This document shows, one piece after another, positions 1 to 35,145 of a DNA stretch of 39,412 nt (position 1 is its first letter; each line of letters starts with the position of its first letter). The notes under the pieces are model-generated. The model had not been told where the DNA came from. It worked only from the letters and a program-made list of their open reading frames with translations, and did not search any database. Position numbers and translations under genes: made by a program. This DNA is from Bacillota bacterium. Lineage in GTDB: Bacteria > Bacillota > Limnochordia > Darwinibacteriales > Darwinibacteriaceae. The stretch covers positions 1 through 39,412 of the forward strand of contig JAAYMS010000116.1 of the NCBI GenBank assembly GCA_012521295.1, written 5' to 3'.

Positions 1-102
1 AAGGATACAGCAATGCGTGTCCCCTGGTGGCACATGCGGCTGCGGCCGCGGCTCCTTGCCGCACGGAATCCACAGCGGTTAAGAGAGGACGGGGAGAGAT
101 GA
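1..102 (+). CDS. C-terminal fragment of GerA-family spore germination protein (5' end outside window)
   Basis: Frame 1 from base 1 reads KDTAMRVPWWHMRLRPRLLAARNPQRLREDGER*, the typical GerA-type tail (DT..R.PWW.M..RP). TGA at 100-102 overlaps the next ATG (ATGA). Confidence 0.75.
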   Translation, partial: KDTAMRVPWWHMRLRPRLLAARNPQRLREDGER

Positions 103-1250
103 GGCGTCCTGCAGCTCGGTTACTTCTGCTGTTGTTCTGTCTGCTTCTGAGCGGCTGTTGGGATTATATTGAGGTTGAAACGCTGACCTTTGTGATTGGT
201 GCCGGTGTCGATATAACTCCTGAGAATCACTTCAAATTATCTGTCGAAACATTCGAGGTAAGGGGTGGCGATCAGACAAACATTACGCCTTATGTGGCCT
301 CGGCTACCGGAATCACCATATTCAACGCACTGCGCAACCTGACCAACACTACTGGCAAGCAGATGTTTTTTGGCCACAGCCATGCGATTGTGTTCTCAGA
401 GGAATTTGCCAGGAAGGGGGTTGGCGAGGTAGTAGGCTTCATGCAGCGCGATGCAGGGGTCCGTACCAATATGTGGCTGCTAGTGGCAAAAGACGCCTCG
501 GCTGAGGAAGTGTTCAAAGCTGATTATCCGCTTTCTCCCAGCGTAGGCCTATACTTAAATCGCGTCATGGATGTCCAAGAGCGCAATCCGACCTTCATTC
601 CGATGCAGATTTGGGAATTCAGCCGAGCCTTAAATGAAGAGGGTATGGCTGCGATACTCCCTACCATCACTCTGATCGAACAGGATGATAAGAAGATCCC
701 GATGGTTGAGGGCACTGCTGTCTTTGACTCAGACCGCATGATAGGTTGGTTGGATGTGCAGGATACTAGGATTTTGGGTTATCTCTTAACTCGGAGGATA
801 ACTGGACTGCTGGTAATTGAGCCTGAATTTCGGGGAGAGACTAAACCAGTAGTGGCCGAAGTTCGGGCATCACAGGTCAAAATCAACCCGAAGTGGGAGA
901 ATGATCAACTGAGCATGGAGATTGTTGTTCGTCTCTTCTTAGATCTGCACGAGCTTGGCTTTGAGGTGTTTGACTATAGCCAGACCGATCTGAAACGTTT
1001 CCTAGAGGAAGCTTTTGCCCGGCAGATGAAAAGCGATATTGAGCATCTGCTCAATACGGTGCAGAAGGATCTTAAGCTGGACATCATAGGATTTGGCAGC
1101 ATGACAAAGAAGAAGGTGCCGCAGGCGTGGCGCAAGCTCGGTGGGAAAAAATGGAAGAGTGAGTTTCCGCAGATCCCCGTGATGGTACATGTATCTGCCC
1201 TGATTACAGAAACTGGCATTCTTGCCAAACCCATAACAGCGAGGTATTAG
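99..1250 (+). CDS. Ger(x)C family spore germination lipoprotein
   Basis: ORF 27..1250 with start most likely ATG at 99; lipobox LLLSGCWD; GerAC-like body. Confidence 0.9.
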   Translation: MRRPAARLLLLLFCLLLSGCWDYIEVETLTFVIGAGVDITPENHFKLSVETFEVRGGDQTNITPYVASATGITIFNALRNLTNTTGKQMFFGHSHAIVFSEEFARKGVGEVVGFMQRDAGVRTNMWLLVAKDASAEEVFKADYPLSPSVGLYLNRVMDVQERNPTFIPMQIWEFSRALNEEGMAAILPTITLIEQDDKKIPMVEGTAVFDSDRMIGWLDVQDTRILGYLLTRRITGLLVIEPEFRGETKPVVAEVRASQVKINPKWENDQLSMEIVVRLFLDLHELGFEVFDYSQTDLKRFLEEAFARQMKSDIEHLLNTVQKDLKLDIIGFGSMTKKKVPQAWRKLGGKKWKSEFPQIPVMVHVSALITETGILAKPITARY

Positions 1251-1251
1251 A

Positions 1252-1473
1252 ATGCTTGCAGCAGTTGGAACGATGCTGGTTTTCATTGTGGTGGGAGTTA
1301 TCGAACCCTTCTTGTGGGAAAAAAGGCGCACGGCTACGGTAATTGCATATGGGGTTGCGATGTTCATTACTGCCGTTCTCACTGCCTTGTATACCATGGG
1401 AATTGAGCCGCCCAAGATGATTCTTACGAATTTTGTAAGGGATCTATTTCAGAAGCTAAAGCCAGGAGGATAG
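1252..1473 (+). CDS. Small (73 aa) two-TM membrane protein embedded in the ger operon
   Basis: Starts 2 nt after gerC stop; two hydrophobic segments (TMLVFIVVGVIEPFL, ATVIAYGVAMFITAVLTALY). Confidence 0.7.
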   Translation: MLAAVGTMLVFIVVGVIEPFLWEKRRTATVIAYGVAMFITAVLTALYTMGIEPPKMILTNFVRDLFQKLKPGG

Positions 1474-1476
1474 AGG

Positions 1477-2577
1477 ATGAAGGAAGTTATCGCTGTACGG
1501 GCAGGGATCGCCACCGTCGTACTGATGCTGATGGGTGGCTCGGTTATTCATGGGATCGGCAGCCAAGCTGGTTCTGATGCTTGGCTTGCCATCATCTTTG
1601 CTGCCTTGTTCAGCCTGCCCTTCATCTTGATATATGCCAGGCTTGGGGATTTTGATCCCGAACAAGATATCTTCCATACCCTCGAGAAAGCTCTAGGTAA
1701 GCCTCTGACAGTAGTTGTCGCGATAATCTACGGCTATTACGCCCTGCTCCTTATGTATTACAGTCTGGACAGTCTCGGGAGTTTCGTGACGGTGGCAGGC
1801 TTGGTGGAAACTCCTAAAGTGGTACCACGCCTAGCGCTCACACTGATCGGTTTAATGGCAGCCAAAGCAGGTATAGAGGTGTTAACGCGCTGGTGCAGCC
1901 TTTTCCTGCGCATCATTGTGCTCACCTCGTTCCTGGCTTTGGTACTGGTCTTGAAAGAGGTTGACTTCTCCAATTTGCAGCCTGTTCTTTTCGACGGTAT
2001 TGGGCCGGTATTACAGGCAACCCTCACTACTATGAAATTTCCCTTTCTAGAAACGGTGCTCTTTACGTTTGCTGGGGCAGGGTTCCGCATCAAGAACGGG
2101 AGCCGTTACGTGCTGGTCAGAGGCCACTTCGCGGCTGCAGCGCTGATATTGTTTATCATTACTCTGACCGTAGCGGTTGTCGGGCCAGAAATCTACCGCA
2201 TCCAGTATTACCCCGTCTATGGTGCTGTTTCTCGGATTGATGTAGGAGGATTCTTTACCCGCTTGGAAATCACGGTGACCTTCATCTTCCTAATTACCGC
2301 TTTTGTCAAGGTGAGTGTCTGTCAAATTGTGGCTGCTAAGTGTTTCAGCTATCTCGTTGGGGAAACAGACTATCGCCGTTTGGTCACGCCTCTGGCCCTA
2401 TCTGGTATCGTGGGCAGCTTCTATCTGGCTGAAGGTACATTAGAGATGGAGAAGCGTAACCTAAGCTTGTGGCCGCCACTTGAACTTGCAGTCCAGGTGA
2501 TTCTGCCTGTGATTATCTGGATTATCGCCGAGATCCGCCTCAACAAACAGAATGATACAGGTCAGAAAGCTAACTAA
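1477..2577 (+). CDS. GerAB/ArcD/ProY family spore germination permease
   Basis: Multi-TM APC-like protein next to gerA and gerC homologues. Confidence 0.9.
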   Translation: MKEVIAVRAGIATVVLMLMGGSVIHGIGSQAGSDAWLAIIFAALFSLPFILIYARLGDFDPEQDIFHTLEKALGKPLTVVVAIIYGYYALLLMYYSLDSLGSFVTVAGLVETPKVVPRLALTLIGLMAAKAGIEVLTRWCSLFLRIIVLTSFLALVLVLKEVDFSNLQPVLFDGIGPVLQATLTTMKFPFLETVLFTFAGAGFRIKNGSRYVLVRGHFAAAALILFIITLTVAVVGPEIYRIQYYPVYGAVSRIDVGGFFTRLEITVTFIFLITAFVKVSVCQIVAAKCFSYLVGETDYRRLVTPLALSGIVGSFYLAEGTLEMEKRNLSLWPPLELAVQVILPVIIWIIAEIRLNKQNDTGQKAN

Positions 2578-28806: not shown

Positions 28807-29814
28807 ATGTCAGTTACGATTATCGATGTGGCAAGAAAGGCGCAAGTTTCTCCTTCGACAGTCAGCCGCGTCATTGCGGATCACCCGCATATCAGTCAGG
28901 AGACAAAGGATAGGGTGCGTGCTGTCATGAGGGAGCTGGGCTATTACCCCAATGCTATAGCCCGTAGTCTTGTCAATAAGACCAGTAACTCGCTGGGGGT
29001 TATCCGCTCCCGGACGAATGAGCAGACGTTTGCCAACCCCTTCTTTCCTGATGTGATTCGCGGGATCTCCTCGGTAGCGAACCAGCACCATCTGAACTTG
29101 GTCCTCTCCACCAGCAGCTGCCCACAGCAGGAAGAGAAAGAATGCCTTGATATGCTCCGTCAACGACAAGTCGACGGTGTGGTGCTCTTAGCATCCCATC
29201 GAGACGACCAACTTATACCCTGCTTGGCCAAGGAGCAGTTCCCGTTTGTCCTTATCGGCAGATACGATGGGCCGGAGCAGATTAACTGGGTGAACAATGA
29301 CAATGTGGCGGCAGCTCGGGAGGCGGTAGAGTTCTTACTTTCAAGAGGGTATCAGGAGATTGCCTGCTTGGCAGGAGATCCGAAGTTCATTGTGAGCCAC
29401 GACAGGGTTCAGGGATATATTGAGGTGCTGAAGTCGCACCGTCTTCCTGTTGAAAAAGATTTGATCGAGTATTCTGATTTTTCGTTAGATGGCGGTTTTG
29501 ATGCCACCACCCGGCTCTTAAAGAAGGGGCGGCGTTTTACGGGCCTTTTCTGCGTTGATGATCTGCTGGCTGTGGGCGCTATCCAGGCTCTGCAGAAGGA
29601 AGGCTTTGTGATTGGCCGTGATATTGGTGTGATAGGCTTTAACGATACCATTTTGGGTGCTTGTATCGATCCGCCTCTTACCACTGTCCATGTTCCCATC
29701 TATGAGCTCGGTCAAGCGGCGGCTGAACTGTTGGTCAATCAGATCAGCAGGAGTGATGCTCCACCAGAACAGCGCAACTTGCCAGCTCGCTTAGTGGTGC
29801 GGGATTCTTGCTGA
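28807..29814 (+). CDS. LacI family transcriptional regulator
   Basis: TIIDVARKAQVSPSTVSRVIADHPHISQETKDRVRAVMRELGYYPNAIARSLV; periplasmic-binding-like effector domain. Confidence 0.95.
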   Translation: MSVTIIDVARKAQVSPSTVSRVIADHPHISQETKDRVRAVMRELGYYPNAIARSLVNKTSNSLGVIRSRTNEQTFANPFFPDVIRGISSVANQHHLNLVLSTSSCPQQEEKECLDMLRQRQVDGVVLLASHRDDQLIPCLAKEQFPFVLIGRYDGPEQINWVNNDNVAAAREAVEFLLSRGYQEIACLAGDPKFIVSHDRVQGYIEVLKSHRLPVEKDLIEYSDFSLDGGFDATTRLLKKGRRFTGLFCVDDLLAVGAIQALQKEGFVIGRDIGVIGFNDTILGACIDPPLTTVHVPIYELGQAAAELLVNQISRSDAPPEQRNLPARLVVRDSC

Positions 29815-29831
29815 GGCTAGGAGGTGCAGAG

Positions 29832-30350
29832 ATGCTGAGAGTTTGCATTTTGCTGCTGGCCTTGGCTTTAGTTTTAGCTCCCCCAGTTGGGGCCAGAGAG
29901 TTTGTGTTTAGCGATCCTAATGGCTTGTTCCAGACAGTCATCCCGGAAGAATGGGTTTACCAGACGCAGCAGAGTAGTCGTTCGTTGAGTGTGTTTTATG
30001 GGCCGGGTACCTCCAATTTGGCCTACTTCGAGGTATTGGAACCGGTGTCGTACGATAGCCCCCTAGAATATGCTGAATATATCGTATCGCTGTTGGCAGG
30101 GCCGGGGGGATTGACAGATTTCACGGTTGAAGAGGGCCCAGATGAGTTCAAATTAGAGGGGCTACCTGCGGTCAGCCTAACATACACCTATCAGGCTGGA
30201 AACGGTGAGAAGCAGAGAGAAGCACGATTGCTTGCGCTTATCGGTGACGGACGAGCCGTCAGCATCACGATCAGTGATAGTGTTTCGGCTTTTGACAGCA
30301 CTCGTGCCGTACTTGATACGATCCTGGCAGAATGGCGGTGGTTGATCTGA
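29832..30350 (+). CDS. Secreted PsbP-like protein of unknown function
   Basis: Signal peptide ending VGARE; FSDPNGLFQTVIPEEW...; 17 nt after lacI-type stop. Confidence 0.65.
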   Translation: MLRVCILLLALALVLAPPVGAREFVFSDPNGLFQTVIPEEWVYQTQQSSRSLSVFYGPGTSNLAYFEVLEPVSYDSPLEYAEYIVSLLAGPGGLTDFTVEEGPDEFKLEGLPAVSLTYTYQAGNGEKQREARLLALIGDGRAVSITISDSVSAFDSTRAVLDTILAEWRWLI

Positions 30351-31738
30351 GAAAGAGCTTACCTATATTAGTCCTCTTGATCGTTCTTGCCAGCTTTTCC
30401 GCACACGCTAACGGAAGCATAATGGATCAGTTCGAGCGCAGTGTTGGTGCTGGGGCAGTAGCTGATTTGGTCAAGGCGTATGGTGGTGAGTACCATCTGC
30501 CTGTGTGGGAGAAGCAGTGGGTGGATGCGGTATTCGAACGGCTTGTTCAGGTTACCGCCCGCAAAGATGTTCTTACTTATTCGTTGACCGTACTCAACTC
30601 GATGGAAGCGAATGCGTTTGCGCTTCCGGGAGGATTTATATTTATCACACGCGGCCTTCTGCGGGAACTGCAGGGTGATTCGCACCGGCTGGCAGCAGTG
30701 CTTGGTCATGAGCTCGCTCATGTTGAACTAAAGCACGGAATTAACACAGTGCTTAGGCACCTTGGCTTGACCGTCTTGGTGGAAATGGGGATGTTCTGGC
30801 TTGATGTGGCTAGTTCTGAAGTGGTACGAATGGCCAGTGCCACAGTGCTTCAGCTCATCCGCCTAGGGTGGGGGCGTGATGCTGAGTTCGAAGCAGATCT
30901 CTTGGGACAAGAATTGGCGTACGCAGCAGGATTTGATCCAGCCGGTGCCGTAATGTTAATGGACTATCTAATATCCATTGAATCTGATGATCATTCTGTC
31001 AGCATTTTCAGCACTCATCCAGCCAGTGCCGAGCGCCGCAGCCGTATGGCTGGGAGGGTAGGTCAATTTTGGAGTAAACCAGTGAAAAATACGGAAAACC
31101 TGCCGATGAAAGTAGCTGGGAACGGCAGGAATTCCGATCCGAATCCTCGAATGGATTTTATGGGTAGATTCGTAGTAGAATTAGTCTCTGGTGCTAATGG
31201 GAGTTTACTGAAAGTTTATGATAAGCAGCTCAATCAGGAATTGAACTGGCTTCCTGACAAGAATGTTCTGGAGGCAGAATGGTCCCCTGACGGACGGTAT
31301 TTGGCAGTAGTTGTGGAGGATATGGGGAGGCAGAGCATCCTGCTGTTGGACCGTTATGGCCGAATTGCCCATGATTGGCGGCAGTTTCAGGGTGCACGGG
31401 CGTCTACCCTGAGGTGGGATCCCTCAGGCAAACGTTTGGCCTACGTGTTGAATGATGGGGGAAACATCAAGCTCATCGTGGGCTACGTCCCAGATCGAGT
31501 GGATGTACCTCTTGCTCTTGGGGCGACCATCACAGATCTTGTTTGGAGCGATGACGGAGATGAACTGTACTTTTTCGACGGGCGAGATTGGTTCGAAATA
31601 CATGGGCCCAGTCAAGAGCCTGTTGTGATTGTAAATCCTGTCCCACGAGTGGTAGAACGGCGCTCCTTTTTTTCTCCCACTGTTGAGCGAGACGGGAACA
31701 CAATTCGACTGACAAGACCCCAGCTGACTATTCCCTAA
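30332..31738 (+). CDS. Secreted M48 metalloprotease with C-terminal TolB-like beta-propeller repeats
   Basis: GHELAHVELKH (HExxH), DAEFEADLLG (third ligand), signal peptide; C-terminal AEWSPDGRYLAVV, LRWDPSGKRLAYV, LVWSDDGDELYFF. Confidence 0.88.
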   Translation: MAVVDLRKSLPILVLLIVLASFSAHANGSIMDQFERSVGAGAVADLVKAYGGEYHLPVWEKQWVDAVFERLVQVTARKDVLTYSLTVLNSMEANAFALPGGFIFITRGLLRELQGDSHRLAAVLGHELAHVELKHGINTVLRHLGLTVLVEMGMFWLDVASSEVVRMASATVLQLIRLGWGRDAEFEADLLGQELAYAAGFDPAGAVMLMDYLISIESDDHSVSIFSTHPASAERRSRMAGRVGQFWSKPVKNTENLPMKVAGNGRNSDPNPRMDFMGRFVVELVSGANGSLLKVYDKQLNQELNWLPDKNVLEAEWSPDGRYLAVVVEDMGRQSILLLDRYGRIAHDWRQFQGARASTLRWDPSGKRLAYVLNDGGNIKLIVGYVPDRVDVPLALGATITDLVWSDDGDELYFFDGRDWFEIHGPSQEPVVIVNPVPRVVERRSFFSPTVERDGNTIRLTRPQLTIP

Positions 31739-31758: not shown

Positions 31759-32709
31759 ATGAAGCTGTTGCTTGCATGGCCGCAGCTGAATGAGGCTCAT
31801 GTAGAGACGATTCAGCAAGAAACAGGTGCGGTGCTTCTCCGACCGGCAGACAAAGATGAACTGCCTGAACTTGTGGAACATGCAGAGGTGATCTTTGGGT
31901 ATATCAAGCCAGAACTCCTCATCCGGGCGGTTCGCTGCCGATGGATGCAGATACCGTTCGCCGGCGTTGAAAAAGTCCTGGCGGTACCCTGGGGTAATCC
32001 CGACATGTTCCTCACTAACGGCAGCGGTATTTTTGGGCCTAATATCGCTGAGCATGTGATTGGAATGATGCTTGCCTTCAACCGGGGGCTGCACATTGCT
32101 CGCGATTACCAGCATAAGCGCCAGTGGCGTTGGGATGAGCCCTACCCATTCCGTGAGCTTACCGATTCAGTTGTCGGAATTCTAGGTTTTGGGGATATCG
32201 GGCAGCATGTGGCGCAGCGGTTGGCTGCTTTTGGCTGTAGGATCATCGGTTTTCGGACGCAGCCCAGGGGAGATGAGCAATACGTTGAAGCGGTATATCG
32301 GTTGGACGAGGTTGACAATCATCTCGATAAGCTGGACTATGTCGTCTGTGCGCTGCCCCACACCAATAAGACCGTTGGTTTCTTGAATCGTGCAAGGTTA
32401 GCGAAGATGCCGAAGCATGCGGTAGTCATCAATGTTGGGCGCGGGTCTCTTATCCCAGAAGAAGATCTTTACGAAGCCCTATCTCAAGGCGTTATTGCAG
32501 GAGCTGGTTTGGACGTTCTGCCAGAAGAACCGCTGCCTGCTGACAGCAGGCTTTGGGATCTGCCTAATCTCATCCTTTCGCCGCACAACAGTGGCTATAC
32601 GCCGTACCATGCGGATCGTGCGCTGGAGATTTTCTTGGACAATTGGCAGAGCTTTATTAGGGTGGGTAGACCGCACCGCAACGTTATCGATCCTGAAAAA
32701 TGGTACTAA
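31759..32709 (+). CDS. D-2-hydroxyacid dehydrogenase
   Basis: GILGFGDIGQHVAQRLAAFG; VINVGRGSLIPEEDLYEAL; AGLDVLPEEPLP; SPHNSG. Confidence 0.93.
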   Translation: MKLLLAWPQLNEAHVETIQQETGAVLLRPADKDELPELVEHAEVIFGYIKPELLIRAVRCRWMQIPFAGVEKVLAVPWGNPDMFLTNGSGIFGPNIAEHVIGMMLAFNRGLHIARDYQHKRQWRWDEPYPFRELTDSVVGILGFGDIGQHVAQRLAAFGCRIIGFRTQPRGDEQYVEAVYRLDEVDNHLDKLDYVVCALPHTNKTVGFLNRARLAKMPKHAVVINVGRGSLIPEEDLYEALSQGVIAGAGLDVLPEEPLPADSRLWDLPNLILSPHNSGYTPYHADRALEIFLDNWQSFIRVGRPHRNVIDPEKWY

Positions 32710-32993: not shown

Positions 32994-33021
32994 TTGACAT
33001 TTCTAGGGACTATTCTATACT
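32994..33021 (+). promoter_or_regulatory. Sigma-A promoter TTGACA-N16-TATACT for the LolA-like/beta-barrel operon
   Basis: Consensus -35 at 32994-32999 and -10 at 33016-33021. Confidence 0.65.
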
Positions 33022-33085: not shown

Positions 33086-33895
33086 ATGGCAAACGGAAAG
33101 TTGAAGTCTTTACACATTCTTTTTACCGCACTAATTCTATGCATAACTCTTCAAGGTTTGTCAGCTCCTGTGTTGGCAGGGGAAGAAGCATCACCAGCAA
33201 ACATTACGATCAAGCTGCCAGAACTGCAGCTTAGTCAGGAACTTGAAGAAGAGGTTTCTCATCTCAGCGTCGAGTCAGTTCTTGATCAGGTACAGATGGA
33301 CGAGTCGGCTGCTGAAGTCGTTCTCCGGATCAATGAGGCGATTGCCGGCCTCACTGATATCGAAGCAGATGTGAAGTTTACTGAGGTGCGCGGCGAACGT
33401 CAGGAGGTCGTTACACTCCGGTTCATAGCTAGTTTAGTGCATAAAATGGTTCGCATGGAGTTTAACTCTCCCAGCGCCTTAAGGGGCCAGGTCTATGTTG
33501 CGGATCGTGCAGCTATGGAAGTCCGAATGTACACGCCTGTAAACAACCATATCATGATCCAGAAGATTGAAGATTTAGGGAATCAGGCAGCAGGTGCACT
33601 CAACCTATCTGATCTCGACCTCGAAGATTTGTTTGATTTTACTCGCTATCAGGTAGAAGTCAGCAGTGTATCTGAGGAAGATGGAATTACAACCTATGAA
33701 CTCAAAGTTTCGGGCTTTGATGAACAGGTGCAGGTTGTTGAGGTAAGAAACGATACCTTTATTCCTCATGCGATACGTGAGTACGAGGGTGATGTCCTAA
33801 TTCGGACTCTTACCTTCGAGAATGTCATTACTGACCAAGGTTTGTCTGCAGAAACCATTGCAAAATTGCCTGCGGTGAAAGAAATGCGATTGTAG
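33086..33895 (+). CDS. LolA-like outer-membrane-lipoprotein carrier-fold secreted protein
   Basis: Signal peptide; IEADVKFTEVRGERQEVVTLRFIASLVHKMVRMEFNSP..RGQVYVADRAAMEVRMYTPVNNH. Confidence 0.72.
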   Translation: MANGKLKSLHILFTALILCITLQGLSAPVLAGEEASPANITIKLPELQLSQELEEEVSHLSVESVLDQVQMDESAAEVVLRINEAIAGLTDIEADVKFTEVRGERQEVVTLRFIASLVHKMVRMEFNSPSALRGQVYVADRAAMEVRMYTPVNNHIMIQKIEDLGNQAAGALNLSDLDLEDLFDFTRYQVEVSSVSEEDGITTYELKVSGFDEQVQVVEVRNDTFIPHAIREYEGDVLIRTLTFENVITDQGLSAETIAKLPAVKEMRL

Positions 33896-33910
33896 GGGGA
33901 GCTTTTTGAG

Positions 33911-34615
33911 ATGTCTTGGCGCGGTTTGCTCAAGCTCATAATCTTACTTATATGTTTGACCCAGTTTGGCGCAGTTGCCTGCGCGGCGGAGCTTAAGGGT
34001 GAACTGCTCTTTGGATACGGCGCCAGTGGGTGGCAGGCAGGGCTGGGTTTGACCCAAGAGACAGTCAAGACCATTGGGTTCTTTGGGTACGAAAAAACTG
34101 GCATCGTAGGGTTTTTGTCTCACGACATTGTCGATGTTGAATCGTTTTCAAGCTGGATAGGTGGGCATAAGCAAGTGAGCGTAGGCAATGTCGGGTACAC
34201 CTTAGAGGTGTTTGTTGCAAACACTCAGCGGCCAATTCTATCGACGTTCCTAGATAATGTAGATCCCCATGTTGGTGCCTATGGGGAGTATAACCGGATG
34301 TATGGTGAATACGGCCATGGCCTGAGCGGTTCAGCACATCTGTATGTTAACGACGAAGGTGGACTAGATTACACCATTCAGCCCTTTTTGCAGTTGCGAC
34401 GGGGTGGCACATGGCGCCTGTCTGCTCACCTCGGTACCAATTTCGGAGTTGGTCTGTCGTATCTAGAGCCAAGCGAAACTCTTAAGCTCGATTTGTCCTA
34501 CGGCGAAGCAGGATTCAGTGCTTATGGGCTTGTTGATGTACCGAACGAACCCATGTCCATCGGAGCAGGTTGGAACGGAAATCAATTGCAGGGATTTATA
34601 CGGTATCATTTTTAG
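33911..34615 (+). CDS. Secreted beta-strand-rich protein, putative outer-membrane beta-barrel
   Basis: Signal peptide; alternating polar/hydrophobic Gly/Tyr-rich strands; C-terminus LQGFIRYHF. Confidence 0.5.
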   Translation: MSWRGLLKLIILLICLTQFGAVACAAELKGELLFGYGASGWQAGLGLTQETVKTIGFFGYEKTGIVGFLSHDIVDVESFSSWIGGHKQVSVGNVGYTLEVFVANTQRPILSTFLDNVDPHVGAYGEYNRMYGEYGHGLSGSAHLYVNDEGGLDYTIQPFLQLRRGGTWRLSAHLGTNFGVGLSYLEPSETLKLDLSYGEAGFSAYGLVDVPNEPMSIGAGWNGNQLQGFIRYHF

Positions 34616-34630
34616 ATATGATCTTTTCTG

Positions 34631-34660
34631 GAGAAACGAAGGATACAGCCTTCGTTTCTC
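34631..34660. terminator. Perfect 12-bp stem-loop GAGAAACGAAGG-atacag-CCTTCGTTTCTC
   Basis: Inverted repeat between the putative beta-barrel gene and trmL, followed by gcgtgtttt. Confidence 0.6.
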
Positions 34661-34689: not shown

Positions 34690-35145
34690 ATGAACGTAGT
34701 CCTATTTGAACCGGAAATTGCCGCTAATGCTGGCAATGTTGCGCGTCTGTGTGCAGCTACCGGCGCGGCCTTACATCTGATTCGCCCTCTTGGTTTCTTT
34801 TTGCATGATAAGCATCTGCGCAGAGCGGGCCTGGATTATTGGGAATACGTAGATCTCAAGGTGCATGATTCTTGGGACGACTTCATGACTGCCATCGACG
34901 GCAAGGGGGCCATCTACTTAGTTGAAACGGGAGGTGACCAGATTTACACTGAACCGACCTATGGGCCCGATGACTATTTCGTCTTTGGTAGTGAGACCAG
35001 CGGCCTGCCAGAAGGCCTTCTGAAGCAATGGCAGCAGAGTATCATAACCATCCCCCAGAAAAATGTGCGTTCACTAAACCTAGCCAACACTGTTGCAATC
35101 GTTGTGTATGAGGCGTGGCGGCAGTTAGGCTTTGGGGAAGGATAA
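34690..35145 (+). CDS. trmL: tRNA (cytidine(34)-2'-O)-methyltransferase
   Basis: SPOUT motifs: FEPEIAANAGNVARLCAATGAALHLIRPLGF; FGSETSGLP; RSLNLANTVAIVVYEAWRQ. Confidence 0.93.
   Translation: MNVVLFEPEIAANAGNVARLCAATGAALHLIRPLGFFLHDKHLRRAGLDYWEYVDLKVHDSWDDFMTAIDGKGAIYLVETGGDQIYTEPTYGPDDYFVFGSETSGLPEGLLKQWQQSIITIPQKNVRSLNLANTVAIVVYEAWRQLGFGEG

Follow-up and report, generated by a model that had tools for sequence, protein, structure and literature searches.

A LolA-like protein and a putative outer-membrane beta-barrel are encoded as a conserved pair in a diderm, sporulating lineage of Bacillota

Introduction

The AmeABCD system of Castellaniella defragrans combines a DUF1302 outer-membrane protein, a DUF1329 protein of the LolA superfamily and an RND transporter (PMC6394551). 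LolA homologues are also found in diderm Bacillota, as in the Halanaerobiales, where no LolB was recognised (eLife 2016, PMC5007114). A 2024 review holds that diderm Terrabacteria have neither outer-membrane lipoproteins nor a Lol pathway, and that Lpt is kept in them without LPS (PMC11784454). Since the Limnochordia have already been described as diderm (PMC11456536), finding a diderm lineage that sporulates is no novelty in itself. The delivery of acylated cargo in LolB-less bacteria and the building of outer membranes without lipid A are open questions.

We analysed a stretch of 39,412 nucleotides (the window; contig JAAYMS010000116.1, assembly GCA_012521295.1) from a Bacillota bacterium of the order Darwinibacteriales, class Limnochordia. 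Like AmeABCD, it encodes a periplasmic protein of the LolA superfamily beside a predicted outer-membrane barrel. With the Lol lipoprotein system (LolCDE-LolA-LolB), it shares the LolA fold and a predicted soluble periplasmic carrier.

Results

Both open reading frames of the pair were found where the preliminary description had placed them, 15 nt apart (Table 1). A purine-rich, Shine-Dalgarno-like stretch precedes the ATG of each. Since a promoter-like site lies upstream of the LolA-like gene and a terminator-like hairpin just 3' of the barrel gene, the two look like a single transcription unit, as judged from consensus matches. No inner-membrane transporter linked to the pair was found in the cluster of the window or in the conserved loci.

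Table 1. Features of the LolA-barrel locus and of the other two modules of this genome
Feature	Position	Strand	Basis or content
Exported PsbP-like protein, overlaps M48 gene	29808..30350	+	named by eye
Exported M48 metalloprotease with C-terminal propeller	30332..31738	+	Pfam M48, 3.7e-29
2-hydroxyacid-dehydrogenase-like gene, between M48 and LolA-like genes	31759..32709	+	synteny
Sigma-70-type promoter-like site, TTGACA-16-TATACT	32994..33021	+	11/12 consensus match only
Exported LolA-fold protein (269 aa), no lipobox conserved in its signal peptide	33086..33895	+	ORF
Small putative beta-barrel of the outer membrane (234 aa), family specific to the order	33911..34615	+	ORF
N-terminal signal peptide of barrel protein, cleavage site approximate	33911..33988	+	hydrophobic segment
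C-terminal barrel signature, LQGFIRYHF	34586..34612	+	strict pattern match
Terminator-like hairpin, 12 bp stem	34631..34660	+	consensus match only
TrmL-like SpoU methyltransferase	34690..35145	+	Pfam SpoU, 3.7e-31; kept downstream
LolCDE-like ABC operon	L138:3341-8949 (C186)	minus	ATPase, two FtsX/LolCE-like permeases, LolA_like, 425-aa barrel-like protein
MMPL/HAE3-type RND transporter with C-terminal LolA_like, 1022 aa	L137:1697-4765 (C7)		in-frame fusion

The LolA-like family comprised 29 members. AlphaFold (AF2), run on five sequences, gave a weak model (pLDDT 53, pTM 0.56), which Foldseek matched to LolA, LolB, RseB, MucB, LppX and DUF1329 with a probability of 1.00. We took a half-closed beta-sheet with a helical lid, recognised by structural match, as the mark of the LolA superfamily, and the model of the window protein shows it. 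The LolA fold proposed earlier was thus upheld, though on a model of low confidence. Neither LolA family in Pfam (PF17131 LolA_like, PF03548 LolA) matched the window protein above its curated cut-off, and PF17131 matched 7 of its 29 relatives (best E = 1.1e-5). In a profile search of the PDB, TTHA1012 of Thermus thermophilus (2yzy) was closest (E = 0.0018), and it had the top target-normalised TM-score (0.67) among the matches listed. Because it has no conserved lipobox, the LolA-like protein is predicted to be soluble and periplasmic, like LolA and unlike LolB.

The downstream product is exported and Gly/Tyr-rich, as described before: it starts with a hydrophobic signal, and its mature part is 16% Gly and 14% Phe/Tyr/Trp. 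By inspection, the signal peptide is of the cleavable, non-lipoprotein type, with no conserved Cys in the homologues. For the latter reason, the suggestion that AVAC might be a poor lipobox was dropped. The residues F(-1), Y(-3), I(-5), G(-7) and L(-9) had been read correctly from the C-terminus as a barrel signature. When 80 genes of the window's genome were examined, the strict signature was present in 5 of 8 suspected outer-membrane proteins (OMPs), including the window protein, and in 0 of 72 other genes. Furthermore, 25 of 29 members of the barrel family retained it, down to approximately 22% identity. These two results indicate that the signature is more than chance. It is common to the barrel protein and to the BamA, OmpM-like and DUF1302 proteins of the genome.

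Structure prediction was less informative. AlphaFold on five sequences returned a series of strands and no confident barrel (pLDDT 38), Foldseek was uninformative, no Pfam family matched, and profile search found no PDB relative. The alternating hydrophobicity claimed in the preliminary description does exist (z = 2.3 against shuffles), but it is not barrel-specific, as the LolA-like protein scores z = 2.5. Amphipathicity was discarded as a barrel test, given that it cannot tell barrels from soluble beta proteins. Given the conserved C-terminal signature, the composition, the signal peptide, the genomic company and a genome that bears BamA, the product is likely, if unproven, to be an outer-membrane beta-barrel.

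We searched the 73 genomes of the class with a 29-sequence profile of the barrel family. Of the 37 genomes in the window's order 36 had it, as against 0 of the 36 others; a single 37-residue match at E = 0.006 outside the order was counted as chance. A search of 399 Bacillota genomes matched members of the order only. The barrel protein is a new family, restricted to this order, and close homologues lie on four named contigs, including one of Peptococcaceae bacterium 1109. The one order genome without the barrel gene (G035) also had no LolA-like gene, possibly through an assembly gap. The LolA-like gene lay immediately upstream of the barrel gene in all 30 loci (gap of -4 to 27 nt), and the pairing held while identity to the window proteins dropped to about 22%. 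The idea of an envelope pair stands as far as conservation goes, but the unit extends beyond the pair, as two exported neighbours accompany it, and the same genome carries two more LolA-barrel modules.

All genomes of families f1 to f4 that were read far enough upstream have the same gene order: PsbP-like, M48-propeller, optional dehydrogenase and FmdB-like, LolA-like, barrel, TrmL and RnfC. The PsbP-like and M48 genes were upstream of the LolA-barrel pair across these families, with the M48 gene immediately before the LolA-like gene in f4 and in a number of f3 genomes. The best named relative of the M48 protein was BepA (NCBIfam, 9e-18), followed by a TolB propeller (4e-7), both far below the equivalog cut-offs. 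The PsbP-like protein had no Pfam or PDB match. By inspection, all four envelope genes (PsbP-like, M48, LolA-like, barrel) have apparent N-terminal export signals. The dehydrogenase-like gene was present in most f1 genomes and in f2, was absent from f3, f4 and G036, and is probably outside the module. The TrmL-like gene is syntenic and probably also outside. Since TrmL and Rnf genes are as conserved beside the pair as the pair itself, synteny alone could account for part of the pairing.

The preliminary description tied the diderm state to an Omp85/BamA homologue in the genome, and one is present (E = 1.8e-55). OmpH, LptB, LptC and LptF/G matched above curated cut-offs, and LptD-like, SLH-barrel OmpM-like and, by inspection, FlgH/FlgI proteins were also present. 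The LptA-like and LptD-like matches were weaker than those of LptB, LptC and LptF/G. The claim of sporulation is borne out by two Spo0A C-terminal domains (E = 7.5e-35 and 4.2e-29) and an S55 (SpoIVB-type) peptidase. The ger genes noted earlier are, by inspection, GerAC-like and GerAB-like and lie at the start of the window (27-2577). The BamA contig, C72, encodes FlgH/FlgI, the S55 peptidase, OmpH, a second small barrel, LptF/G, LptD-like protein, LptC, LptA, LptB, FabZ (by inspection), an LpxB-like protein and, further along, the SLH-barrel OmpM-like protein.

LpxC was absent from the window's genome, from all 37 order genomes and from family f12, and was found in 31 of the 33 genomes outside the order and f12. 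Despite its order-wide absence, the Lpt genes, FabZ and the LpxB-like gene are kept on C72 (L093:9313-19160). There is a single LptF/G permease, whereas most LpxC-positive families have two. This outer-membrane gene cluster also includes a gene for a 722-aa membrane protein, LolC/E-like in outline and largely periplasmic in one part, which is followed by an ABC ATPase (L093:13863-16772); the protein had no Pfam match above cut-off. Between OmpH and LptF/G lies the gene for the second small barrel-like protein (L093:8655-9278; 207 aa, ending GLNYRFSF, weak YjbH match), conserved in LpxC-positive and LpxC-negative families.

A PF17131 search of the window's genome revealed the two further LolA-barrel modules, on C186 and C7, so that the genome has three LolA-fold proteins, each beside a probable outer-membrane barrel. 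On C7, the MMPL-LolA_like fusion is followed by a DUF1302-family barrel (above the Pfam cut-off). Both modules were conserved in G032. In f12, the orthologue of the LolA-like gene is directly followed by a gene for a 325-aa barrel-like protein ending GLRYIF. We compared the window barrel profile with the second small C72 barrel, BamA and the f12 barrel; a weak signal was seen with f12 alone (P = 0.006, 15 comparisons in all), and on these profiles its barrel is not demonstrably homologous to that of the window. Of 16 loci read from LpxC-positive families, 14 have the nearest LolA-like homologue followed by an AcrB-type RND gene. As C186, C7, f12 and the AcrB-type loci demonstrate, LolA-fold proteins of the class recur in the company of an outer-membrane barrel, of an energised transporter of the inner membrane, or of the two together.

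The 425-aa barrel-like protein of C186 stands where LolB would be expected. Many genomes of the family have comparable MMPL-LolA_like fusions, roughly 1015-1063 aa long. An arrangement that resembles AmeABCD is found in another family, where the genes for an MMPL-type transporter, a canonical LolA_like protein and a barrel-like protein that matches DUF1302 weakly follow one another (L088:75-5119, G016:C215).

Discussion

We propose, with a probability of roughly 0.5, that the pair encodes a LolA-type periplasmic carrier and its outer-membrane barrel partner for acylated cargo in a diderm spore-former. The LolA-fold protein would be the soluble carrier, its groove shielding an acylated cargo (lipid or lipoprotein), and the small barrel would receive or insert that cargo. 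The inner-membrane step would fall to an unlinked transporter, and the M48 protease-propeller and the PsbP-like protein could plausibly be quality-control factors for the barrel or for its cargo. We infer a closed barrel, a cargo, its hand-over, an inner-membrane donor and a role for the protease. The proposal is supported by the BamA and Lpt genes, the LolA fold, the C-terminal signature, the invariant pairing and the occurrence in 36 of 37 genomes. The promoter-like and terminator-like sites flanking the pair, the C186 and C7 modules, the f12 pair and the AmeA/AmeB precedent also speak for it. It is weakened by the lack of a confident AlphaFold barrel, of a Pfam LolA match to the window protein and of a linked inner-membrane transporter, and by the equal conservation of TrmL and Rnf.

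A more specific version, to which we lend limited credence and which we think unlikely as it stands, is that the small barrel sits in the outer membrane as an integral acceptor to which a LolA-type carrier delivers, making it the functional counterpart of LolB where LolB is missing. If this were true, a diderm lineage of Bacillota would run several parallel LolA-to-barrel delivery routes, contradicting the published view that diderm Terrabacteria have no Lol pathway. The version in the window is fixed order-wide in bacteria that have no LpxC. If the coupling of LolA and barrel is real, these modules offer specific candidates for the acceptor step that is missing, and ones that can be tested.

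The barrel might instead be a small porin or structural OMP with the LolA-fold protein as its dedicated periplasmic chaperone, no lipid cargo being moved. Together with the BepA-like M48 protease, this would make an OMP assembly and quality-control cassette. The resemblance to BepA and the presence of the M48 gene in the same cluster order-wide, with the LolA-like gene as its immediate neighbour in f4 and a number of f3 genomes, fit this explanation. However, the LolA fold generally carries acyl chains, and the other two LolA-barrel modules have lipid-type transporters (LolCDE-like ABC and MMPL), so we consider a chaperone doubtful.

It is rather improbable that the pair is an adaptation of cells that have lost lipid A and provides them with a replacement lipid for the outer leaflet. 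The distribution of LpxC would suit this, because the order and f12, which both lack it, have LolA-barrel pairs with orthologous LolA-like genes, and nearly all remaining genomes (31/33) possess it. The correlation nevertheless amounts to one or two clade events on the tree, in which the placement of f12 has 70% support only and its barrel is not demonstrably homologous, and the Lpt genes, including the LptD-like one, are retained. A search for LptD with PF04453 gave no match, which first suggested that the pair might replace LptD or Lpt in LPS-less cells; this was rejected as the leading explanation given the LptD-like, LptA, LptB, LptC and LptF/G proteins of C72.

To a similarly small degree, we credit the possibility that 33911-34615 encodes a Gly-rich beta protein that is soluble, with nothing but synteny behind the pairing. 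The AlphaFold result, an amphipathic alternation no stronger than in soluble beta proteins and the TrmL and Rnf genes conserved alongside are compatible with it. Against it stand the signature in 25 of 29 members, common to BamA, OmpM-like and DUF1302 proteins, the Gly- and aromatic-rich composition, and the position directly after the LolA-like gene in 30/30 loci. That the LolA-fold protein is an RseB-like envelope-stress sensor with the barrel merely a neighbour is very improbable: RseB and MucB were among the Foldseek matches, but inspection of the window revealed no adjacent sigma or anti-sigma factor gene, and the barrel is the direct neighbour in every locus.

The proposed carrier-partner pair differs from each of the described systems. 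TTHA1012, the solved structure nearest to the LolA-like protein by sequence profile, is of unknown function. In the Lol lipoprotein system, LolA works with LolCDE and LolB; the window locus has no LolCDE or LolDF, its LolA-like protein has no PF03548 match and adjoins a probable integral barrel rather than the lipoprotein LolB, and the LolCDE-like set on C186 has a LolA_like protein of its own. In the Halanaerobiales, LolA clusters with LolC/E and LolD, unlike the module of the window, and the text on that cluster describes no barrel (PMC5007114). Unlike AmeABCD, the window pair has no adjacent RND gene, encodes a barrel outside the reach of DUF1302 and is accompanied by the M48 protease and the PsbP-like protein; the C7 module (MMPL-LolA plus DUF1302) is much nearer to AmeABCD. 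The theme of an RND or ABC transporter with LolA and a barrel is already known, AmeABCD being an example, and the window module, without an inner-membrane pump of its own, is a new form of it.
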